Positions 13,072-53,711 of a stretch of DNA of 64,000 bases are shown here, piece by piece. The DNA is from Thauera humireducens. GTDB lineage: Bacteria > Pseudomonadota > Gammaproteobacteria > Burkholderiales > Rhodocyclaceae. How positions within the stretch are numbered: the first letter of the stretch is position 1; every line of letters begins with the position of its first letter. The notes under the pieces are model-generated. The model ran no database searches, had not been told where the DNA came from, and worked only from the letters and a program-made list of their open reading frames with translations. The position numbers were made by a program, and so were the translations under genes. The stretch is taken from positions 2,046,001 through 2,110,000 of the forward strand of contig NZ_CP014646.1 in the NCBI RefSeq assembly GCF_001051995.2, read 5' to 3'.

Positions 13072-13202
13072 GTCGCTGCCGGGTAGCAGACGCGGGCATC
13101 GGGCCGCGCTGCACCCGGCGCCCGGCGGTTTCGTTAATCCCATTCACACACCCGCAGCCTGCATTAGCAATTCTCCGGCCGCCGTTAACCCGTGCGGCGG
13201 AA

Positions 13203-13250
13203 GATCACGCTCAACAGGACCGCCGACCTTCGTCGGACGGGAGCGTGATC
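13203..13250 (+). promoter_or_regulatory. Long hairpin in the torA 5' leader
   Basis: A perfect 10-bp inverted repeat (13203-13212 with 13241-13250) encloses a second stem, CCGAC/GTCGG, with a four-base loop. It ends directly before the AAGGAG ribosome-binding site (13251-13256) of torA. It leaves the site exposed, so it may stabilise the mRNA or act as a protein-binding palindrome. No T-run follows. In the same intergenic region CGTTAA occurs at 13132 and again at 13183, 51 bp apart. Confidence 0.5.
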
Positions 13251-13263
13251 AAGGAGAAGCATC

Positions 13264-15909
13264 ATGTCGTTCAGCCGCCGCGCCTTTCTGAAGTCCACCG
13301 CCGCCTTCGCCGTCGCCAGTGGCGGGCTCAAGCTGTTCGGGGTCAACGAGGTGTTCGGCGCGGACACCGTGCTGATCCCCCACGCCTCGCACTACGGCCC
13401 GTTCAAGGCGGTGGTGAAGAACGGGGTCCTGGTCGGCGTGCAACCGCTGAAGCACTTCGACCCGATGCCCACGCAGATGCTGCTCGAAGGGGTGCTGAGC
13501 CGCACCTACCACCCGACCCGGGTGCAGTATCCGATGGTGCGCCGTTCCTACCTCGCCAACCCGCGCGGCGACATCAAGGGGCACCTGCGCGGCAAGGAAC
13601 CCTTCGTGCGCGTGTCGTGGGAAGACGCGCTCGCGCTGGTCGCCGACGCCAGCCTGCGCACGATCGAGCAGCACGGCAATGACGCGGTGTTCAGCTCATC
13701 ATACGGCGGCTGGTCGCACGCCGGCGTGCTGCGTCCGCAGGTCCTGCAGGGGCGGCTGTTCGGCCTCATCGGCGGCCACAGCGTCACCACCGGCGACTAT
13801 TCCGGCGGCGCCTCGCAAGTCAGCCTGCCGCACATCATCGGCGACATGGAGGTGTATTCGCCGCAGACGTCCTGGGAAGTGATCCGCGACAGCACCGAGG
13901 TCTTCGTGCTGGTCGGCTGCGACCCGTGGAAGAACAACCGCATCGAATACACGGTGGCCGACCACCAGATGTACTCGCGCTGGGAGGCGATCCGCGATGC
14001 CGGCGTGAAATTCGTGTCGATCAACCCGCAGCGCACCACCACCGACGAGGCCATGCGCGCCGAGTGGGTGAAGATCGTTCCCAACACCGACACCGCGCTG
14101 TTCCTCGCGATGTGCTGGCACGTGTACACGACCGGCAAGTACGACAAGGCCTACCTCGACAAATACACGGTCGGTTTCGACCGGTTCCTGCCCTACCTGC
14201 TCGGCAAGGACGCCGACGGCACGCCACCCAAGACGCCGGAATGGGCCGCGAAGATCACCGGCATCCCGGCGGCGAAGATCGTCGAGATGGCCGACCTTTT
14301 CGCCAGCAAGCGCACCCAGTTCGCCGGCGCCTGGGCGCTGCAGCGCGCCCACCACGGCGAGATGACGCACTGGGCGATCATCGCCTTCGCCGCCATAACC
14401 GGCAAGATCGGCAAGCCTGGCCAGGGCGTGGGCTTCTCCTGGCACTACGGCGGTGGCGGCATGCCGGTGTCGGGCAAGCGCGGCGCGGTCGGCATCCCGC
14501 AGGGGCGCAACCCAGCCAAGGGCCGCTGCCCGGCCTCGCGCATCTCGGAGATGCTGCTCAACCCCGGCAAGCCCTACACCCGCGACGGTGCGAACTTCAC
14601 CTTCCCCGACGTGCACATGATCTACAACGCCGGCAACAACTTCGTGCATCACCAGCAGAACACCAACGAGCTGATCGAAGCGATGGCGAAGAAGGTGCAC
14701 ACCGTGGTGAACCAGGACCCGTGGTGGTGCGCGTCCTCGCGCTACGCCGACATCGTGCTGCCCGCCACCAGCCACCTCGAGCGCAACGACATCAGCACCG
14801 GCGGCACCTACAGCAACGACAAGATCTGGGCGATGCGCCAGGTGATCCAGCCCTATGGCGAGAGCCTGGACGACTTCGAGATCTTCCGCCGCCTGGCCGA
14901 ACTGTTCGGCGTCGAGTACGGCTTCACCGAAGGCCTGACGGTGATGGACATCGTCAAGAACAGCTACGCCAACACCGACGCCAGGATCCCGTTCGAGGAA
15001 TTCTGGGAGACCGGCGTGGCCGAGATGGAGGTGCCCGATGCCGCCCGCCGCTGGGTGCGCCATGGCGACTTCTACGCCGACCCGGTCAAGAACCCGCTGC
15101 ACACCGCCACCGGCAAGATCGGACTCTACGTCGAAGCCTTCGAGCGCTTCGGCACCAAGGAATGCCCGCCGATCCCGAAGTACCTCGAGCCGGCCGAGTT
15201 CCTCGGCAACGCCAAGCCGGGCCAGGTGCATGTGGTGAGCCCGCACCCCTTCATGCGCGTGCATTCGCAGATGGCCAACGCCGAATGCTCGAAGCACCTC
15301 AACATCCAGGGCCGCGAATTCGCGCTGGTCAGCGAGGAGGACGCGCGCGAACGCGGCGTCAAGGACGGCGACCTGATCGAGGTCTACAACGATCGCGGCG
15401 CGGTCATCGTCGGCGCCCGGGTGTCGCCCAACATCATGAAGGGCGTGATCAGCATCTATGAAGGCGCCTGGCTGTCGAAGGACAGCAAGGGCCGCTGCAA
15501 CAGCGGCGCGATCAACGTGCTGACCACGAGCGTGGCGGCGAGCGACCTCAGCCAGGCCACCAGCGCCAACACCTGCCTCGCCTCGTTCCGCAAATGCACC
15601 GACGCCGAAGGCCCGAACCGTGCCTACGAGCCGCCGGTGGTCGAGAACAGCACCGTCCGCATCGAAGCCGCCGCACTGAGCCTCACCGAGCGCGCGCAAA
15701 AGGCCAAGGCCGCCTCCACCGCCGGCCTGACGCCGGGCGAGAAGCTCTTCTACGAGCGCTGCACGCTGTGCCACGTGCCGCGCGAACCGGGCGACTACAC
15801 GGTGAAGCAGTGGCACGGCATCACCGAGAGCATGTTCCCGCGCGCCGGCCTGACCGACGACGAGCGCAAGCTGGTGCTGGAATTCCTCGAAAAGAACGCG
15901 AAGAAGTGA
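13264..15909 (+). CDS. torA: TMAO reductase-like molybdoenzyme with fused C-terminal cytochrome c domain
   Basis: An 881-residue Tat substrate (SRRAFLK at residues 4-10). Residues about 40-780 are a DMSO reductase-family bis-MGD oxidoreductase. SSYGGWSHAG places Ser151 at the position of the molybdenum-ligating Ser of DorA/TorA. There is no N-terminal Fe-S Cys motif, as in TorA/BisC. Residues about 820-881 form a small mono-haem module with CTLCH (Cys833, Cys836, His837) and a possible axial Met857, so electrons could enter through a built-in haem. The torT, torS and torR genes next door argue for TMAO, though related N- or S-oxides are possible. AAGGAG precedes the ATG. No torC or torD is nearby. 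Confidence 0.85.
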   Translation: MSFSRRAFLKSTAAFAVASGGLKLFGVNEVFGADTVLIPHASHYGPFKAVVKNGVLVGVQPLKHFDPMPTQMLLEGVLSRTYHPTRVQYPMVRRSYLANPRGDIKGHLRGKEPFVRVSWEDALALVADASLRTIEQHGNDAVFSSSYGGWSHAGVLRPQVLQGRLFGLIGGHSVTTGDYSGGASQVSLPHIIGDMEVYSPQTSWEVIRDSTEVFVLVGCDPWKNNRIEYTVADHQMYSRWEAIRDAGVKFVSINPQRTTTDEAMRAEWVKIVPNTDTALFLAMCWHVYTTGKYDKAYLDKYTVGFDRFLPYLLGKDADGTPPKTPEWAAKITGIPAAKIVEMADLFASKRTQFAGAWALQRAHHGEMTHWAIIAFAAITGKIGKPGQGVGFSWHYGGGGMPVSGKRGAVGIPQGRNPAKGRCPASRISEMLLNPGKPYTRDGANFTFPDVHMIYNAGNNFVHHQQNTNELIEAMAKKVHTVVNQDPWWCASSRYADIVLPATSHLERNDISTGGTYSNDKIWAMRQVIQPYGESLDDFEIFRRLAELFGVEYGFTEGLTVMDIVKNSYANTDARIPFEEFWETGVAEMEVPDAARRWVRHGDFYADPVKNPLHTATGKIGLYVEAFERFGTKECPPIPKYLEPAEFLGNAKPGQVHVVSPHPFMRVHSQMANAECSKHLNIQGREFALVSEEDARERGVKDGDLIEVYNDRGAVIVGARVSPNIMKGVISIYEGAWLSKDSKGRCNSGAINVLTTSVAASDLSQATSANTCLASFRKCTDAEGPNRAYEPPVVENSTVRIEAAALSLTERAQKAKAASTAGLTPGEKLFYERCTLCHVPREPGDYTVKQWHGITESMFPRAGLTDDERKLVLEFLEKNAKK

Positions 15910-15919
15910 GCCCTTCCGA

Positions 15920-15947
15920 CCCCAACCCCAACCCCGACCCCAACCCC
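15920..15947 (-). repeat. Five-run G4 tract (G-quadruplex-capable, period 6)
   Basis: On the plus strand five CCCC runs begin at 15920, 15926, 15932, 15938 and 15944, each separated by exactly two bases (AA, AA, GA, AA). The minus strand therefore reads as telomere-like GGGGTT/GGGGTC repeats able to form a four-tetrad quadruplex. It lies in the 74-bp gap between the convergent torA and torT stops, downstream of torT. Confidence 0.75.
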
Positions 15948-15968
15948 TAAGCGGCGCAAGCCGGCATG

Positions 15969-16001
15969 GCGCCGGCCCGGTCCTCAAGGCCGGGTCGGCG
16001 C
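15969..16001. terminator. Strong hairpin at the torA/torT convergent junction
   Basis: The arms 15969-15980 and 15990-16001 form a 12-bp GC-rich stem with one G-T wobble and a 9-nt loop. It covers the torT stop codon. There is no U-tract, so it is at most a weak intrinsic terminator; it could also act as an mRNA 3'-end barrier for torA. Confidence 0.45.
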
Positions 16002-17156
16002 AACTTCGTAGACCGGCACGAAACCCGCCGGCGGCAGCATCCAGTGCGCCGGAAAGCGCTTCAGCGTGGCGGCATCGACCAGTTCCACGCCAGGGCCGAC
16101 GTGAGGTTCGATCTCCATGCCTTCCAGCGCGCGCAGCGCCTGCCGTACCGCCATGCGTCCCTGCAGCACCGGAAAATCGCTGACCGATACCCGGATGCGC
16201 CCGCGCAGCAACCCGCTATACACGCCGGGCGTCACGTAGGACGACACGATGCCGACCTCGTCCTCCCGACCGCGCCGCCTCAGCTCGGCAATCGCCGCCT
16301 CCGCCATCGGCGCGTTGCCCACCAGGTAATCGAGCCGGGGATGGGCGTCGAGCACCTCCTCGACCAGCTGGCGCTGGATCGAGCGCCCGGTATCGCCGCC
16401 GCGCACGGCGACGATGCGCACCGCGCTGCCCGCGACCGCGTCGCGAAAGCCGCGGTCGATGAAGTCCACCCAGCCCGCATCCGGCGGCCCGGGCAGCCAG
16501 GCGATGTCGGCCCCGGCGGAACCCGCCGGGTGGCGCTCGGCCAGCCAGCGGCCGATCTTCCAGCCGAGCTGGTACCAGGGCACGCCGACCTTGCCCCGCA
16601 CCACGCCGGCGTCGATGTCGTTCACCAGCGCCAGCACCGGCCGCCGCGCGGCCTCGGGCGCGAGCAGGTCGTTGAGGCCGGCGTAGCTCACCGTGCCGAC
16701 CAGCAGCGCATCGCTGCCTTCGTCCGCAAGGCAGGCCCGGACGCGCTCGCGCTGGCGCTCGAGGTGCTCGTAGCCGGCCGACTCGAGCACATGCAGGCCC
16801 AGGCCCAGCGCGCGGGCCTCCTCGACCATGCCGAAGTTCACCGCCAGCCAGTAGCTGTCCTTCAGGTGCGGATACACGGCGCACAGACGCCACGGCCGTG
16901 ACACGACGACGCGCTCGAACATGCCCGATGCCGACCCTGCGCCGTCCGGCGCGCGCTGGTCGCCGCGCCAGCGCTCGACGGGCCAGCGCTCCGCCAGCCA
17001 GTCGGCGTACCCTGCCGCGGGCGAGGCCAGCGCAGCGGACGAGGCGACGCCTGCTAAGAAGAGCGTCGCACGCAGCGCGGTTTGCAGCGCCCGGCAGGCG
17101 CGCCGCCGGTAAGATGAGGGCCAGCCCGGTCTGGCAAGGGCGCGAAGCGGATCCAC
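15984..17156 (-). CDS. torT: Periplasmic TMAO-sensing binding protein
   Basis: A 390-residue member of the periplasmic binding protein type I (LacI/ribose-binding) fold. It has an export signal (Arg-rich start, then LRATLFLAGVASSAALA) and a mature protein beginning near SPAAGYADWL. Features include VSRPWRLCAVYPHLKDSYW, LVGTVSYAGL and VSSYVTPGVYSGL. In the Tor system TorT binds TMAO and modulates the sensor TorS. GTG 17156 is chosen because AGAGGTGA lies about seven bases upstream; an ATG at 17186 would run into torS. It is divergent from torS with only 17 bp between starts. Confidence 0.83.
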   Translation of the reverse strand: MDPLRALARPGWPSSYRRRACRALQTALRATLFLAGVASSAALASPAAGYADWLAERWPVERWRGDQRAPDGAGSASGMFERVVVSRPWRLCAVYPHLKDSYWLAVNFGMVEEARALGLGLHVLESAGYEHLERQRERVRACLADEGSDALLVGTVSYAGLNDLLAPEAARRPVLALVNDIDAGVVRGKVGVPWYQLGWKIGRWLAERHPAGSAGADIAWLPGPPDAGWVDFIDRGFRDAVAGSAVRIVAVRGGDTGRSIQRQLVEEVLDAHPRLDYLVGNAPMAEAAIAELRRRGREDEVGIVSSYVTPGVYSGLLRGRIRVSVSDFPVLQGRMAVRQALRALEGMEIEPHVGPGVELVDAATLKRFPAHWMLPPAGFVPVYEVAPTRP

Positions 17157-17173
17157 GACGAAATCACCTCTAT

Positions 17174-20137
17174 ATGGACGCCCCATCTTACGTGAAAGCC
17201 CCGCCACGGCGCCGCTTCGGCCTGCGCGAACGGCTGATGCTCGGCCTGCTGTTCGGGGCACTGGGCACGATCATCGTCGCCGTCGTCGGCTGGATCAGCT
17301 TCCAGCGCGTGGTCGGCAGCCAGCAGGCCATCGTCCGCGAGACCCTGCCCACCGCCGACGCCCTGCACGACGCGGTGCGCGGCAACGCCCGCCTGGCCGC
17401 CCTGGCCCCGCGCCTGGCGCGCGCCGACACCACCGGCGAGCTCCACCAGTTGCGCGCGACCCTGGATGCCGAACTGCCGCTGATCCGCGACCGCCTCGCA
17501 CGGCTCGACTCGCCGCACGTCGAACCCGAGTTGCGCGCGCGCCTGCAGGCAACCGGCGACACCCTGGCCGCCCGCCTCGGCATCATGGCCGACACCATCG
17601 CCGCCCGCCTGCAGGTTCGCGACGCACGTCTCGCCGCCGCCCGCGCCCTGCGCGACAGCATCGACGAGCTGGGTGCGCTCGCGCGGGCGCAGACCGACAA
17701 CGCCACCGCCCTGCTGGTGTCGACGCTGACCACGCTGCTGCAGGCCGAGACGGGCGCCCCCTCGACGCCAGCCTCCCTACCCGATCGCACCGCGGCAAGC
17801 GACCGCCTGCTCGACGTCGACCTCGACACCCTCGAGCGCATGCATGAACTCGTGCTCACCGCCCACGCCCTCGGCAGCCTCGTCGACCGTCTCGACGAAG
17901 TCGACACCCCCGCGCGGCTGCAGGAGGCGCGTGCCGCGTTCGACACCCAGCTCGCCTTGCTGGCGCGCCGGGTACGCGACGTCGCCGACCCGGGCGCCCG
18001 CGCGCAGGGCGAGACGCTGCACGCCACGCTCGCCGGCGCGACGGGGCCTGGCGGCGCCTTCGACATGCGCGGCGCAGAACTTGAACTGCGCGCCCGCAGC
18101 GAGTCCTCCCAGGCCGAGGTCGGCACGCTGACGACCGAACTCGACGCGCTGGCCGGCGAGCTGATCCATCGCGGCGGGCGCATCCTCGCCGAAGCCGGCC
18201 TGAGCGCCGAGCGCAGCGCCAGCTCGGGCGTACTGGCCTTCGGCGTGATCGGCGCGGCACTGTTGCTGGTCACCGCGCTGGTCCTCATCCAGGTCCTGCG
18301 CCGGCATACCCTCGGCCGCCTGCTGGCACTGGAGGAGGCGACGCTGGCACTGGCCAGCGGCAAGCGCGACGTGCGCATCGACACCGACGGCGACGACGAG
18401 CTGGCCTCGCTGTCCCGTGCGCTCGCCCGCTTCCGCGACGACGCCGTCGAGCGCGACCAGCTCGCCGCAGCCCTGCGCGTACAGCAACAGCAGCTCGAGC
18501 ACGAGGTCGCCGCCCGCACCGCGGAACTGCGCGACAGCAATGCCGCACTGGCACGCGAGACCGCCGAACACGCCGCAGCACGCCTCACCGCCGAGAAGGC
18601 CGACCGCGCCAAGACCGCCTTCCTCGGCACCGTGAGCCACGAACTGCGGACCCCGATGGCCGGCATCCTCGGCCTGCTGGAACTGCTCGAGGACACCGAC
18701 CCCGCGCCCGGGCAGCAGAAGTACCTCGAGCAGATCCGCTCGGCCGCGGTGCTGCTGCTCGAACTGCTGGAGGACATGCTCGACTTCGCCCGCATCGAGG
18801 CCGGCGGCGTGCAGGTGGAGAACACGCCCTTCAGCCTGCGCGACACGGTCAACGACGTGTTCGCGGTGCAGGGCACGCGGGCGGCGGCGCGCGGCCTGGC
18901 CCTGGTGGCCGACATCGACCCGGGCGTGCCCGACGCCCTGCTCGGCGACCGGCGCAAGCTCAGCCAGATCCTGCTGAACCTCGTCGGCAATGCGATCAAG
19001 TTCAGCGACGAAGGCGCCGTCACCGTGCGCATCGCACCGGGGACGCGACCCGACGGCCTGCGCTTCGCGGTCCAGGATCATGGCATCGGCATCGACCCGG
19101 CACGCCAGCGCGAGATCCTCGAGCCCTTCGTGCAGGTACGCGACAGCGGCCGCCACCACGGCGGCACCGGCCTCGGGCTGGCGGTGTGCAAGCGCCTGAT
19201 CGAGGCCATGGGCGGCGAGATCGCCATCGACAGCGCCCCCGGACAAGGCACGACGGTGAGCTTCGAATTTGCCTTCACGCCGGCTCCGGCACCGGCGTCC
19301 TCCAAGGCAAGCGCCGGTGCGGCGCCCGTGCAGCTTGCGCCAGGCCACACCGTGCTGCTGGTGGAGGACGACGCCGTCAATCGCATGGTGGTCGAGCGCT
19401 TCCTGCAGGCGCTCGACCAGCACCCGCTATGCGCCGGCGATATCCAGGCCGCGCTCGCGACCGTCGATCGGCACAGGCCGGACATCGCTCTCATCGACAT
19501 GAACCTGCCGGACGGCGACGGCCGCGAACTGCTGGCGCGCCTGCGCGCCCTGCCCGGCGTAGCACAGCTGCCCGCCGTGCTGATGTCCGCGCACGTGCCT
19601 GCGAACGAGGTGAAGGCCTTGCTCGATGCCGGCTTTGCCGCCTTCCTGCCCAAGCCCTTCACGCGCGCGCAACTGCAGGCCCTGCTCGCGCGCGTGCTGG
19701 GCGACGGCGCGGCGACAGCGCCCGAGCCGGATGGCGGCGACGCGCAGGCACCCGACGCACGTAATGCGGCAAGGCTGGAATGGGTCAGCGAGGACTTCCT
19801 GCGTACCGAACACGACGCGCTCGGCGATGCCGTGCTCGGCGAGATCGCAGCGGTCTTCGCGTCGCAGGGCGACACCCTCGTCAGCGCGCTGCTCGACGCC
19901 GCGCACGCGGGCGATGCCGGAGAGTGCCGCAGGCTGGCACACAAGCTGCGCGGTGCGGCGTCCAACCTCGGGCTGGAAGCCCTCCGGACACAAGCGGGAA
20001 GCCTGGAACAGGATCTCCTGGACGAGGCGCAGCACATCTCGCTCCCCGAGCGCGCGAGTGCCCTGCAGCAGACCTATCGCGAAACCGTCCGCGCGCTACG
20101 CGCCACACTGGCCCGGCTCGCCGACGACCGGCGCTGA
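17174..20137 (+). CDS. torS: Hybrid sensor histidine kinase of the TMAO system
   Basis: A 987-residue phosphorelay kinase. Order: TM1 (about 20-44), a long helical periplasmic sensor, TM2 (about 352-377), HAMP, a coiled coil, HisKA with His489 in SHELRTP, HATPase (NLVGNAIKF, DHGIGID, GTGLGLAVC), a receiver with Asp775 in ALIDMNLPDG, and an Hpt domain with His923 in AHKLRGAASNLG. This unorthodox H-D-H architecture is that of TorS, which signals to TorR on TMAO. It is flanked by torT (divergent) and torR (convergent, six bases away). No Shine-Dalgarno is visible at ATG 17174; GTG 17192 is a possible alternative. Confidence 0.92.
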   Translation: MDAPSYVKAPPRRRFGLRERLMLGLLFGALGTIIVAVVGWISFQRVVGSQQAIVRETLPTADALHDAVRGNARLAALAPRLARADTTGELHQLRATLDAELPLIRDRLARLDSPHVEPELRARLQATGDTLAARLGIMADTIAARLQVRDARLAAARALRDSIDELGALARAQTDNATALLVSTLTTLLQAETGAPSTPASLPDRTAASDRLLDVDLDTLERMHELVLTAHALGSLVDRLDEVDTPARLQEARAAFDTQLALLARRVRDVADPGARAQGETLHATLAGATGPGGAFDMRGAELELRARSESSQAEVGTLTTELDALAGELIHRGGRILAEAGLSAERSASSGVLAFGVIGAALLLVTALVLIQVLRRHTLGRLLALEEATLALASGKRDVRIDTDGDDELASLSRALARFRDDAVERDQLAAALRVQQQQLEHEVAARTAELRDSNAALARETAEHAAARLTAEKADRAKTAFLGTVSHELRTPMAGILGLLELLEDTDPAPGQQKYLEQIRSAAVLLLELLEDMLDFARIEAGGVQVENTPFSLRDTVNDVFAVQGTRAAARGLALVADIDPGVPDALLGDRRKLSQILLNLVGNAIKFSDEGAVTVRIAPGTRPDGLRFAVQDHGIGIDPARQREILEPFVQVRDSGRHHGGTGLGLAVCKRLIEAMGGEIAIDSAPGQGTTVSFEFAFTPAPAPASSKASAGAAPVQLAPGHTVLLVEDDAVNRMVVERFLQALDQHPLCAGDIQAALATVDRHRPDIALIDMNLPDGDGRELLARLRALPGVAQLPAVLMSAHVPANEVKALLDAGFAAFLPKPFTRAQLQALLARVLGDGAATAPEPDGGDAQAPDARNAARLEWVSEDFLRTEHDALGDAVLGEIAAVFASQGDTLVSALLDAAHAGDAGECRRLAHKLRGAASNLGLEALRTQAGSLEQDLLDEAQHISLPERASALQQTYRETVRALRATLARLADDRR

Positions 20138-20143
20138 GGCGCT

Positions 20144-20890
20144 TCAGGACGCGCGGGCCTGGACCTCGACCGCGAGGCGGTAGCCCTCGCCACGGACGGT
20201 GGTGATCAGCGAGTCGGACTCGCCTTCGGCGTCGATCTTGGTCCGCAGGCGACGCACGAGCACATCGATCGTGCGGTCCTGCGGATCCCAGTCATGCCCA
20301 TTGACGGCCCGCGACAGGCGGTCGCGGCTCATGACCTCGCCGGGGTGGCGCACCAGCAGGCCCAGCACCTCGAACTCGCCGCGCGTCAGGGCCACCTCGG
20401 CCCCTGCCCGGTCGAACAGCCGGCGGCGGGGAAGATCGAGCGTCCAGCCGGCAAAGCGGAACACCTCCGCGCGCTCGGCCGCCCGTCCCCCGGCACGCAG
20501 CTCGCCCGCCCGGCGCAACAGGCTCTTGACGCGGGCCAGCAGCTCGCGCGGATTGAAGGGCTTGGTGACGTAGTCGTCTGCGCCGACCTCGAGGCCGACA
20601 ATCTTATCCACGTCGTCGTTGCGGCTGGTGACGAGGATGATGCCGATCGCACCGTTACGTGCCCGCAGGTCGCGCGCCAGCGACAGGCCGTCCTGCCCGG
20701 GCAGGTTGATGTCGAGCAGCACGAGGTCGACCGGCGTGTGTGCCAGCGTCTGCCACAGCGCCTCGCCGTCCCCCGCCAGCAGGACGGTGTAGCCCTCCTG
20801 GCTGAAGTAGGCGCTCAGGCGGGCCTGGGTGACGAGATCGTCATCGACGACCAGCAAGGTGGGCGCGTGCGCATCGCGGGCGGGCTGCAT
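20144..20890 (-). CDS. torR: OmpR-family response regulator of the TMAO system
   Basis: A 248-residue regulator. The receiver occupies residues 10-125 (acidic triad in VVDDD, phospho-Asp60 in LLDINLPGQDG, Thr in VTSR, Lys in TKPF), and a winged-helix DNA-binding domain lies at about 150-245 (TRGEFEVLGLL, RTIDVLVRRLRTKI, TTVRGEGYRL). Position next to torS makes it the cognate TorR, which should bind upstream of torA. ATG 20890 is preferred over an upstream in-frame ATG at 20944 because it aligns with OmpR-type N-termini. It lies 32 bp downstream of gabD on the same strand and may receive read-through. Confidence 0.88.
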   Translation of the reverse strand: MQPARDAHAPTLLVVDDDLVTQARLSAYFSQEGYTVLLAGDGEALWQTLAHTPVDLVLLDINLPGQDGLSLARDLRARNGAIGIILVTSRNDDVDKIVGLEVGADDYVTKPFNPRELLARVKSLLRRAGELRAGGRAAERAEVFRFAGWTLDLPRRRLFDRAGAEVALTRGEFEVLGLLVRHPGEVMSRDRLSRAVNGHDWDPQDRTIDVLVRRLRTKIDAEGESDSLITTVRGEGYRLAVEVQARAS

Positions 20891-20922
20891 GGCGTTGCCT
20901 ATCGGGCGAGACAGGATCCGGA

Positions 20923-22380
20923 CTAGCGGATCCCGCCCATGCACAGGTACTTGATCTCGACGAAGTCGTCGATGCCGTACTTCGAGCCTTCACGGCCGAT
21001 GCCGGACTCCTTGACGCCACCGAAGGGCGCGACCTCGGTCGAGATGATGCCTTCGTTGATGCCGACGATGCCGTACTCCAGGCCCTCGGCCACGCGCCAC
21101 ACGCGGGCGATGTCGCGCGCGTAGAAATAGGCGGCCAAGCCGAACTCGGTGTCGTTGGCCATGCGGATGGCCTCGTCCTCGGTGTGGAAGCGGAACAGCG
21201 GCGCCACCGGGCCGAAGATCTCCTCGCGCGCGATGCGCATCGCCGGCGTCAGCCCGGTGACGATGGTGGGCTCGAAGAAGGTGCCGCCCAGCGCATGGCG
21301 CTTGCCGCCGCAGACGATCTTCGCGCCCTTGGCCACCGCGTCACCCAGCAGTTCCTCGACCTTCGCGACGGCATCGGCGTTGATCAGCGGGCCCTGCTGC
21401 ACGTCGCCCGACAGGCCGGGGCCGACCTTGAGCTTCGCCACCGCCTCGGCCAGCCTGGCGGCGAAGGCGTCGTAGATGCCGTCCTGCACCAGCAGGCGGT
21501 TGGCGCACACGCAGGTCTGGCCGGCGTTGCGGTACTTGGAGGCCATCGCCCCGGCCACCGCGGCGTCGAGGTCGGCATCATCGAAAACGATGAAGGGGGC
21601 GTTGCCGCCCAGTTCGAGCGCGACCTTCTTCACCGTGTCGGCCGACTGGCGCATCAGCAGCTTGCCGACCTCGGTCGAACCGGTGAAGGAGAGCTTGCGT
21701 ACGATCGGGTTGGCCGTCAGCTCGCCACCGACTTCGGCCGCCTTCATGGTCGTGACGATGTTGAGCACGCCCTTTGGCAGGCCGGCACGCTCGGCCAGCT
21801 CGGCCAACGCCAGCGCGCACAGGGGCGTGTCCTCGGCCGGCTTGATCACCATCGTGCAGCCGGCAGCCAGCGCGGGGCCCGCCTTGCGCGTGATCATCGC
21901 GATCGGGAAGTTCCACGGCGTGATCGCCGCGACCACGCCAATCGGCTCCTTGAGCACGAGGATGCGCTTGTCGGCGCCATGGGCGGGAATCACGTCGCCA
22001 TAGACGCGCTTGCCCTCCTCGGCGAACCACTCGATGAACGAAGCGCCGTACGCGACTTCGCCGCGCGCCTCGGCCAGGGGCTTGCCCTGCTCCGAGGTCA
22101 TCAGCACCGCCAGATCCTCCTGGTGGGCCATGATCAGCTCGAACCACTTGCGCAGGATCGCCGCGCGCTCCTTTGCGGTACGCGCACGCCATGCCGGCAG
22201 GGCCGCCGCCGCGGCCTCGATGGCGCGCCGGGTTTCGGCCGCGCCCATGTCGGGCACGCTCGCCAGCACGCCGCCATTCGCGGGGTTGAGGACATCGAAG
22301 CGGGCGCCATCGTCCGCCTCTGTCCAGGCGCCATCGATGTAGGCACGTGTGCGCAGCAGGGTGTCGTCTTTCATTCGCAT
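20923..22380 (-). CDS. gabD: NAD(P)-dependent succinate-semialdehyde dehydrogenase
   Basis: A 485-residue aldehyde dehydrogenase of GabD length. ITPWNFPIAMITRK gives the cofactor-site Asn, FTGSTEVGKLL the dinucleotide loop, and LELGGNAPFIVFDDAD the catalytic Glu. NAGQTCVCANR carries the nucleophilic Cys followed by a second Cys two residues later, as in SSADHs with a redox switch. It oxidises succinate semialdehyde to succinate. ATG 22380 is chosen because GGAG lies nine bases upstream. It follows aroG by 50 bp on the same strand, a pairing with no obvious pathway logic. Confidence 0.88.
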   Translation of the reverse strand: MRMKDDTLLRTRAYIDGAWTEADDGARFDVLNPANGGVLASVPDMGAAETRRAIEAAAAALPAWRARTAKERAAILRKWFELIMAHQEDLAVLMTSEQGKPLAEARGEVAYGASFIEWFAEEGKRVYGDVIPAHGADKRILVLKEPIGVVAAITPWNFPIAMITRKAGPALAAGCTMVIKPAEDTPLCALALAELAERAGLPKGVLNIVTTMKAAEVGGELTANPIVRKLSFTGSTEVGKLLMRQSADTVKKVALELGGNAPFIVFDDADLDAAVAGAMASKYRNAGQTCVCANRLLVQDGIYDAFAARLAEAVAKLKVGPGLSGDVQQGPLINADAVAKVEELLGDAVAKGAKIVCGGKRHALGGTFFEPTIVTGLTPAMRIAREEIFGPVAPLFRFHTEDEAIRMANDTEFGLAAYFYARDIARVWRVAEGLEYGIVGINEGIISTEVAPFGGVKESGIGREGSKYGIDDFVEIKYLCMGGIR

Positions 22381-23688: not shown

Positions 23689-24627
<939 letters not shown>

Positions 24628-24716
24628 CCCCCGCGACCGCCGTGCCGGCAGGCTTGCGAACGGCTGCCCGGCGCGGACAATGCAGCCCGCAACCACACGA
24701 TAGAGCGTCTCCCGCA

Positions 24717-25397
24717 ATGCCCACTTTCCTGCGCGCGCCCTCCGGCGCGCAGATTGCCCTGATCAAGGCGGTCGTCTTCCTGATCTGCCTGCTGCCTGCC
24801 CTGAACCTCGCGCTCGGGTGGTACGAGGACGCCCTCGGCGCCAACCCGATCGAGACCATCACCCGCGCCAGCGGCGAATGGACGCTGCGCTTCCTGCTGA
24901 TCACGCTCGCCGTCACCCCGCTGCGCCGCTACACCGGCCTGCACTGGCTGCTGCGCCTGCGCCGCATGCTCGGGCTCTTCGCCTTTGCCTATGGCGCAGC
25001 GCACCTGACGACCTACCTCTGGCTGGACCAGTTCTTCGACTGGCAGGCGATCGCCAACGACATCCTCGAGCGCCCCTTCATCACCGTGGGATTCGCCGCC
25101 TTCGTGCTGCTGATCCCGCTCGCGGCGACCTCGAACAGTTTCGCCATCCGCAAGCTGGGTGGCCGGCGCTGGCAATCCCTCCACCGCTCGAGCTACGCGA
25201 TCGCCATCCTCGGCGTGGTGCATTTCTGGTGGCTGGTGAAGGCCGACCTGCTCGAACCGCTCGTCTATGCGCTGATCCTGGCGGTGCTGCTCGGCCTGCG
25301 CGCCTGGTGGCGCGAACTCGAACGGCGGCGTCAGCTGTCGGTGCCGCCGCCAGCCAAGCATCTCGAGCGGCCGGTCATCCGCATCGTGCCGAAGTAG
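24717..25397 (+). CDS. msrQ: Haem-binding membrane subunit of the MsrPQ system
   Basis: A 226-residue b-type cytochrome of the ferric-reductase-like transmembrane family (YedZ). Six hydrophobic helices are visible. Haem-ligand His residues are plausible in the helix containing AYGAAHLTTYLW, in LHRSSYAIAILG, and in GVVHFWWLVKAD. It passes electrons from the quinol pool or a flavin reductase to MsrP in the periplasm. ATG 24717 gives a normal N-terminus; the Shine-Dalgarno is poor, so coupling to msrP translation is possible. Confidence 0.92.
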   Translation: MPTFLRAPSGAQIALIKAVVFLICLLPALNLALGWYEDALGANPIETITRASGEWTLRFLLITLAVTPLRRYTGLHWLLRLRRMLGLFAFAYGAAHLTTYLWLDQFFDWQAIANDILERPFITVGFAAFVLLIPLAATSNSFAIRKLGGRRWQSLHRSSYAIAILGVVHFWWLVKADLLEPLVYALILAVLLGLRAWWRELERRRQLSVPPPAKHLERPVIRIVPK

Positions 25398-53040: not shown

Positions 53041-53081
53041 ACCGCGTTTGAAACAATCACTCACGGCTTTCCGAGGACATC

Positions 53082-53711
53082 ATGATCAAGCGTTCCCTGC
53101 TGCTCTCGTCCCTGTTGCTTGTTGCCGGCGGCCTGCAGGCCCAGGAGCAGGCTCCGGACCTCGCCAAGGCGAAACAGACCGCCGAAACGGTCTGCGTCGC
53201 CTGTCACGGCGCTGACGGCAACAGCCAGCTGTCGGCCAACCCGAAGATCGCCGGGCAGCACGAGGACTACCTCTACAAGCAGCTGCGCGAGTTCAAGGGC
53301 TGGGACGGTGCCAAGCCCCTGCGCGAGAACGCGGTCATGGGCGCGATGGTCGCCGGCCTCGAAGACGCCGACATGAAGGGCCTGGCGAAGTACTTCGCGT
53401 CCTTCGAGCTGCAGCCCGAGCCGGCCAAGAACCTCGAAACCATCGAACTCGGCCAGAAGATCTGGCGTGCAGGCATCGCCGCCAAAGGCGTGCCCGCCTG
53501 TGCCGCCTGCCACGGTCCTGCCGGCGCCGGTCTCCCCGCCCAGTATCCGCGCCTGTCGGGCCAGTTCGCCGAATACACCGAAGCCCAGCTCAAGGCCTTC
53601 CGTGACGGCGGACGCGACAACGACCCGAACCGCATGATGCGCATGATCGCGCTGAAGATGACCGATGCCGAGATGAAGGCGGTCGCCGACTTCGCGGCTG
53701 GCCTGCGCTGA
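53082..53711 (+). CDS. Dihaem cytochrome c4
   Basis: A 209-residue periplasmic protein. The signal peptide ends LQA|QEQ. Two class I cytochrome domains follow with CVACH (Cys38, Cys41, His42) and CAACH (Cys140, Cys143, His144); candidate axial Met residues lie in the VMGAMV and RMMRMIA regions. Cytochrome c4 passes electrons from the bc1 complex to terminal oxidases or other periplasmic reductases. It is followed by a terminator and then by the System II haem-attachment genes, a logical and widely seen grouping. Confidence 0.92.
   Translation: MIKRSLLLSSLLLVAGGLQAQEQAPDLAKAKQTAETVCVACHGADGNSQLSANPKIAGQHEDYLYKQLREFKGWDGAKPLRENAVMGAMVAGLEDADMKGLAKYFASFELQPEPAKNLETIELGQKIWRAGIAAKGVPACAACHGPAGAGLPAQYPRLSGQFAEYTEAQLKAFRDGGRDNDPNRMMRMIALKMTDAEMKAVADFAAGLR

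Follow-up and report, generated by a model that had tools for sequence, protein, structure and literature searches.

A 64,000-nucleotide stretch of the Thauera humireducens genome (contig NZ_CP014646.1, positions 2,046,001 to 2,110,000 of the forward strand; hereafter the window) encodes an 881-residue Dor/Tor-type S/N-oxide reductase that combines a twin-arginine translocation (Tat) signal with a C-terminal TorC_C-like haem domain in a single open frame (positions 13264..15909, + strand). Our data argue that this gene, which we call torA-cyt, probably specifies a periplasmic, TorC_C-tethered S/N-oxide reductase under TorTSR-type control, i.e., an enzyme whose reductase chain has taken in the haem domain with which TorC delivers electrons. 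This reading draws on the architecture, homology, conservation, gene context, operator sharing, and phyletic pattern described below. Loci and genomes are cited by our own L and G numbers, and C1 denotes the contig of the window genome.

Architecture and active site of the fused reductase

The body of the predicted protein is built from Molybdopterin_N, Molybdopterin, and Molydop_binding domains, and its one CxxCH motif (residues 833-837) lies close to the C-terminus, bearing out an earlier prediction from the same DNA (the original prediction) of a Tat-type reductase ending in a mono-haem module. Conservation was assessed in an alignment of 51 full-length fused proteins (the window protein, 49 of the 51 loci of a GTDB contig scan, and L166; L180 and L224 were excluded for their broken frames), in which R5, R6, Y147, W150, S180, C833, T834, C836, H837, Q849, W850, M857, F858, P859, and R860 are invariant (51/51). 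The twin arginines (residues 5-6) belong to a Tat signal region at 13264..13362 (+ strand, end approximate), and the Pfam TAT_signal model scores the protein at 11.6 bits against a cut-off of 22.7.

Tyr147 and Trp150 (13702..13713, + strand) align with Tyr114 and Trp116 of dimethyl sulfoxide (DMSO) reductase, and Ser180 (within GDYS; 13801..13803, + strand) aligns with serine 147 of the DMSO reductase chain, which we take to be the molybdenum (Mo) ligand. The ligand had been predicted at Ser151; the alignment puts it at Ser180, and Ser151 is the residue adjoining active-site Trp150. By alignment only, torA-cyt thus has the Ser ligand, the active-site Tyr, and the Trp of the Dor/Tor/BisC group. 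Among solved structures, the DMSO reductases 1dms and 1eu1 are nearest in sequence (E ~1e-175), and the top NCBIfam model is TIGR00509 bisC_fam (819.3 bits, under its cut-off of 1017.55). The Dor/Tor body of what had been predicted to be a TorA is therefore upheld, and the name TorA is not: the protein falls far under the curated TorA cut-offs (599.7 versus 1465 bits for TIGR02164; 627.1 versus 909 for NF011682), and the active-site Tyr, whose absence marks TorA proper and which is missing in alignments from the second TorA of this genome (TorA2), 1tmo, and E. coli TorA (9h4t), is present in all 51 fused proteins.

A one-haem module homologous to the C-terminal domain of TorC

The fused module occupies residues 825-881 (15736..15909, + strand). 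It bears the haem-attachment motif CTLCH (residues 833-837; 15760..15774, + strand), with C833, T834, C836, and H837 invariant, and Met857 (15832..15834, + strand), a candidate distal haem ligand that is likewise invariant and aligns with a Met that never varies in the TorC domain. Residues 825-880 align with TorC positions 325-380 (E 6.7e-5 with the whole protein, 7e-7 with the module alone). Each of the 24 modules scanned, a subset of the 51 aligned proteins, matched both TorC models, TIGR02162 and PRK15032 (best E 1.8e-11), and 16 of them matched the runner-up family, SorB (best E 1.6e-4). A profile of the module matched a profile of 12 TorC tails (96.5%, E 7.9e-10), with the two candidate Met ligands in register. 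A search of the PDB with the module profile returned generic cytochrome c matches only (best E 0.0019). The module thus has the features of the C-terminal domain of pentahaem TorC, i.e., homology to TorC ~325-385, one CxxCH, and a Met further on; the original prediction had proposed comparing the two, and they prove homologous.

Because these residues never change in 51 of 51 proteins, we infer that the module is strongly constrained and in all likelihood binds haem. TorA, DorA, and BisC are described in a review as carrying Mo-bis(pyranopterin guanine dinucleotide) (Mo-bisPGD) as sole prosthetic group (PMC10609526), a statement to which the torA-cyt family would be an exception.

Distribution and phylogeny of the fusion

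The fusion gene occurs in 13 of 29 Thauera genomes and in none of 32 other genomes among the matches listed; it was found in 2 of 369 genomes sampled from the class and 4 of 398 sampled from the phylum, both samples including the window genome and G222. The wider survey that had been suggested with the original prediction was fruitful: the GTDB contig scan gave 51 fusion loci, with the module covered in every one, from Thauera, Azoarcus, Aromatoleum, Zoogloea, Acidovorax, Malikia, Azospirillum, Photobacterium, Vibrio halioticoli, Shewanella, and some metagenome-assembled genomes (MAGs). This count is a lower bound, since plasmid records supplied further carriers (Shinella, Paracoccus, Leisingera, Defluviimonas, and Azospirillum ramasamyi). 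A one-genome oddity or an assembly error is ruled out by the fusion loci of so many other genomes and plasmids. In a tree built by a quick method and midpoint-rooted, one branch with a support of 100 separates 51 fused proteins from 42 unfused relatives.

Two loci carry interrupted copies. In Thauera propionica KNDSS-Mac4 (L180 6045-8690, genome G002), a torA-cyt 98% identical to that of the window has an in-frame stop at codon 204, and the frames of the adjacent torT, torS, and torR are open; in Shewanella marina (L224 6050-8687), torA-cyt is broken into two overlapping frames. In the titles and abstract starts of the open-licence literature searched we found no account of a fused reductase-haem architecture, which may have been published nonetheless.

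A four-box operator shared with torECAD

The window genome consists of a single 4,171,754-base contig and contains a complete torECAD locus at C1:~1.208-1.213 Mb, 0.85 Mb from torA-cyt. A small torE-like gene stands immediately before torC (C1:1208544-1209698; 535.8 bits, above the curated cut-off of 478.2), and a second TorA (C1:1209763-1212240, 40% identical to the fused reductase) and torD (C1:1212465-1212848) follow; the other match to PF02613 (the TorD family) sits in a different gene cluster. All full-length TorC and TorD-family matches lie outside the window, in which the sole TorC-model match is the fused module. The predicted lack of TorC and TorD is hence correct for full-length proteins within the window, and torECAD rules it out for the genome.

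Promoter comparison revealed a four-box operator, GTTAAY-N3-ATTMAC ... GTTAAC, upstream of torA-cyt (13133..13189, + strand), with 51 bp from box 1 to box 4, which we propose as its TorR site. The 4.17-Mb genome contains exactly two copies of the pattern, at C1:1208080 (before torE) and at C1:2059133 (window position 13133, before torA-cyt), and neither the reversed pattern nor 12 simulated genomes with the dinucleotide make-up of the window gave any match; as the pattern was derived from these promoters, matching them is by construction, and the result is that nothing else matched. More broadly, torA-cyt and torE promoters have in common GTTAAY-N3-ATTMAC (or a close variant of it), a box in the middle, and a GTTAAC or GTTAAT; the last of these lies 51 bp from box 1 in 9 of 9 torA-cyt promoters (from clade-1 Thauera and two relatives; L180 is identical to the window) and 51-52 bp from it in 11 of 11 torE promoters measured. 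The region upstream of torE was visible at 14 of the 18 torC loci, the other 4 having been fetched in the opposite orientation and left outside the count.

In 13 further promoters examined (from Zoogloea, Aromatoleum, Azoarcus Aa7, and clade-2 Thauera), a box with GTTCAT precedes a TAGCAT-like hexamer by 17-18 bp, and GTTAAC or ATTAAC boxes lie farther upstream, an arrangement similar to the E. coli TorR box; the GTTCAT box was not seen in the Acidovorax and Malikia promoters examined. A search with the E. coli TorR decamer, allowing up to 2 mismatches, found none in the 300 bp before torA-cyt, torT, torR, and torC, the torE promoter lying farther upstream. TorR is the putative binder of the four-box operator. 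An inverted repeat lies at window 13203-13250, between the operator and the start codon of torA-cyt; the folding z scores of the 5' hairpin against shuffles in five sequences (-1.85 in the window, -0.37, -2.88, -1.85, and -0.26) were not consistently better.

The torT, torS, and torR genes and their surroundings

As predicted, homologues of all three sensory genes lie beside torA-cyt. The torT gene (15984..17261, - strand, start codon uncertain) exceeds both of its family cut-offs (TIGR02955, 314 versus 310 bits; NF008185, 356.8 versus 200). The torS frame (16898..20137, + strand) encodes a hybrid sensor kinase, with the likely start at codon 93 (~17174) by comparison with relatives, and matches the Pfam TorS_sensor_domain (80.3 versus 27 bits), scoring 597.7 with TIGR02956, under its cut-off of 676.5. 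The response regulator gene torR (20144..20944, - strand, with an internal ATG at 20890) has NF008034 as best family, at 266.9 bits just under the cut-off of 275.

In the fetched stretches, torT is present at 25 of 52 fusion loci, i.e., at 23 of 24 betaproteobacterial loci and both Azospirillum loci, the stretch at the betaproteobacterial locus L203 being too short to decide; it adjoins torA-cyt in the betaproteobacterial loci, but lies 2.1 kb away in Zoogloea ramigera. Neither torT nor torS was found in the fetched stretch of any of the 25 gammaproteobacterial loci or of L166. Among five alphaproteobacterial plasmid records opened, torT-torS-torR precede torA-cyt in four, torT and torS not being found at the Paracoccus sanguinis locus, and molybdenum-cofactor genes follow torA-cyt in three. 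The TorT sequences of fused and unfused Thauera intermingle in one clade, a pattern consistent with a stable torTSR locus beside which torA-cyt has been gained and lost.

On a Leisingera caerulea plasmid (L245 9752-13005), torA-cyt is followed by a single run of molybdenum-cofactor genes and a pseudoazurin gene, a hint, from this one record, of a soluble donor. Searches with tblastn found no pseudoazurin above 60 bits at L243, L244, L246, L247, L278, and L279, and none at E 1e-6 at L180-L203, L219, L221, and L166. A few kb downstream of the torA-cyt locus, at window 23689-25397, lie two putative msrP- and msrQ-like genes (periplasmic methionine sulfoxide repair). Apart from torA-cyt, only one open frame of 80 codons or more in the window, at 53052-53708, contains CxxCH motifs (two).

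TorC and TorD among carriers, and alternative readings

Full-length TorC is absent from 3 of the 13 Thauera carriers, namely, G004 (100% complete), G007 (99%), and G021 (98%). Among 39 other carrier genomes searched it is absent from 14, i.e., from all 13 other betaproteobacterial carriers (G428-G440, several of them drafts or MAGs) and from G222, and a full-length TorC-type protein is present in 25 (23 Photobacterium, Vibrio, and Shewanella genomes above the cut-off and two Azospirillum genomes below it). The fetched stretch holds torT in 12 of the 13 TorC-less betaproteobacterial carriers. PF02613 has no match in the TorC-less Thauera G007 and G021, one match in G004, and none in the TorC-less G428 (a MAG) and G433 (Zoogloea ramigera); G017, a Thauera, has TorC and no PF02613 match. 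A Thauera-built TorD profile, which may miss distant TorDs, found TorD in the fetched stretch only at UBA9855 (L184 = L048), where torD-torA-torC come after torR; in G027, torD is on the same contig as torA-cyt, ~9 kb apart.

Several findings weigh against our reading of torA-cyt: (i) TorC is present in 10 of 13 Thauera carriers, the window genome included, and above the cut-off in all 23 Photobacterium/Vibrio/Shewanella carriers searched, and 15 of 25 gammaproteobacterial loci have a TorC-like gene within the fetched stretch, so the module need not replace TorC there; (ii) some PF02613 protein, identified at the family level only, occurs in 11 of the 13 TorC-less betaproteobacterial genomes; (iii) the operator is absent from 3 of 14 torE promoters (L061, L072, and L073, in the clade-2 Thauera G003, G014, and G017), and G020, which has the torE operator and no TorT match, suggests that TorR may not be the operator's only binder; and (iv) the AlphaFold model, computed from an input alignment of 39 of 50 full-length fused proteins, is of low confidence (mean predicted local distance difference test 66.3, predicted template modelling score 0.69) and yields no haem-Mo distance.

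As a replacement for TorC, the fusion thus agrees with the existence of carriers without full-length TorC and disagrees with the window strain, which has torC, a second torA, and torD. The original prediction had itself named a co-regulated torC/torD pair elsewhere in the genome as counterevidence, and torECAD is such a pair, because it and torA-cyt have the same operator. Taken as a whole, that prediction is partly supported: its observation was right with corrections, and its interpretation was wrong for the gene content of the window strain and right in spirit for many relatives.

These counts bear on the possibility, which we take seriously while holding it short of likely, that the fused enzyme assists a normal Tor chain, in which the tethered haem continues to be reduced by docked TorC (or NapC), so that transfer is faster and nothing is replaced. 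The operator common to torECAD and torA-cyt in the window genome agrees with such a helper, as do the TorC counts in Thauera (10/13) and in the gammaproteobacterial carriers (23/23) and the TorC-like genes within the fetched stretches of 14 of the 15 loci L204-L218 (these genes, and that at L229, are ~30% identical to the TorC of the window genome). At L204 4313-5485, in Photobacterium phosphoreum, a five-CxxCH cytochrome gene, also ~30% identical to Thauera TorC, lies divergent and ~0.5 kb from torA-cyt; its product may be the cognate partner of the fused reductase. In contrast, a helper would have no full-length TorC to work with in the 13 other betaproteobacterial carriers, G222, and three Thauera, and the TorC model (E 1e-6) detected no NapC/NirT/TorC-type protein in Acidovorax soli (G438) or an Acidovorax MAG (G440), since its sole matches there are weak (1.4e-7 and 2.0e-7), as expected of the fused module itself. 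The Acidovorax result favours a soluble or other electron donor in these two carriers.

A further alternative concerns the substrate. Enzymes with both Tyr and Trp are described as reducing S- and N-oxides, and TorA, which lacks the Tyr, as an N-oxide reductase (PMC5122715); torA-cyt has both residues and is therefore predicted to have a broader range than TorA, with S-oxide as well as N-oxide reduction. It is plausible, though short of probable, that an S-oxide (DMSO, methionine sulfoxide, or another) is the natural substrate and trimethylamine N-oxide (TMAO) an incidental one, given that Tyr147 and Trp150 are as in S-oxide reductases and invariant. However, TorT, a homologue of the TMAO sensor that passes curated cut-offs, is encoded beside torA-cyt, and an active-site Tyr is compatible with TMAO because Haemophilus influenzae TorZ/MtsZ is reported to turn over TMAO as well (PMC5122715).

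We regard as improbable a chiefly regulatory module whose apo form would bind the TorS sensor and so signal haem supply. Its homology to the TorC C-terminal domain, the adjacency of torS and torA-cyt in most betaproteobacterial loci and 4 of 5 opened alphaproteobacterial plasmid records, and the reported binding of E. coli apo-TorC to TorS_N (PMC11727998) would suit this role, but the module is equally conserved where torT and torS were not found in the stretch (25/25 gammaproteobacterial loci, L166, and Paracoccus sanguinis). A relic that has lost haem binding is hardly credible: the module of the window matches general cytochrome c families only weakly (Cytochrom_C, 19.7 bits versus a cut-off of 21.3), but C833, T834, C836, H837, W850, M857, F858, P859, and R860 are constant in 51/51.

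Proposed working of the fused enzyme

Haem loading, the electron path, TorR as binder, and the substrate are the parts of the TorC_C-tethered reading that we infer. The Mo cofactor would be inserted in the cytoplasm and the protein exported by Tat with its haem tail still apo, after which the cytochrome c maturation (Ccm) system would attach haem to C833 and C836. The tethered haem, ligated by H837 and M857, would be reduced by TorC, NapC, or NirT where present, or else by a soluble carrier, and would pass single electrons to the Ser180-ligated Mo. With the TorC_C step built in, the enzyme would need only a reductant for a one-haem domain; fusing the one-haem half would make transfer intramolecular, and TorC would become dispensable if another donor reduced the haem. 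Expression would be under TorT/TorS/TorR-type control, and in the window strain torA-cyt is probably induced together with the complete torECAD, as a second, broader-substrate reductase.

More speculatively, and in our view unlikely in its entirety, the fusion may be a self-contained, portable respiration module (reductase, TorC_C haem, and TorTSR, with its own cofactor-synthesis genes on some alphaproteobacterial plasmids), in which soluble donors of the bc1 branch (cytochrome c or pseudoazurin) would replace the quinol-TorC route, maturation would be free of TorD, and the enzyme's own apo-haem domain would be the feedback signal to TorS.

The natural single-chain TorC_C-reductase would open the haem-to-Mo step to crystallography, electron paramagnetic resonance, and stopped-flow without a transient complex. 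It is also a test case for c-type haem attachment to the tail of a Tat-exported Mo enzyme, and for Dor/Tor maturation without a TorD-family chaperone in the TorC-less carriers lacking a PF02613 match (G007, G021, G428, and G433). How TorS senses without TorC, a question raised earlier for this locus, is moot in the window genome and stands in the TorC-less carriers, which thus offer a test case.

Comparison with known systems

Like the TorCAD and TorECAD systems of E. coli and Shewanella, torA-cyt combines a Mo-Ser body, a Tat signal, TorT/TorS/TorR genes, and a haem domain thought to feed Mo. It differs in that the haem domain is on the reductase and not on a tetrahaem anchor, that the locus lacks torC and torD, that the active-site Tyr is present, and that the protein falls under the TorA model cut-offs. 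For E. coli TorC, the tetrahaem N-terminal half is reported to bind TorA strongly, and the one-haem half has been proposed to pass electrons (PMC11727998). The fused haem, which had been likened to the docking module of TorC, therefore corresponds to the other half. Models place the C-terminal haem of TorC 35 or 17 angstrom from Mo, and, according to the same 2024 paper, the detailed path by which electrons travel from TorC's haem domain to the active site of TorA has yet to be established (PMC11727998).

Rhodobacter DorA DMSO reductase provides the closest solved structures (1dms, 1eu1) and the same Tyr/Trp/Ser active site, but the alignment stops at torA-cyt residue 780-781, before the haem module. 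TorZ/BisC come closest by family model (TIGR00509 bisC_fam, under its cut-off), and we know of no fused haem in TorZ or BisC. TorZ/BisC and MtsZ share the active-site Tyr and Trp, E. coli TorZ is described as apparently independent of TorD, and the partner of MtsZ is, in contrast, a separate pentahaem cytochrome, MtsY (PMC5122715). Campylobacter Cj0264c/Cj0265c, likened here by description only, likewise pairs a reductase with a small c-type cytochrome, but as two separate genes (PMC4178425).

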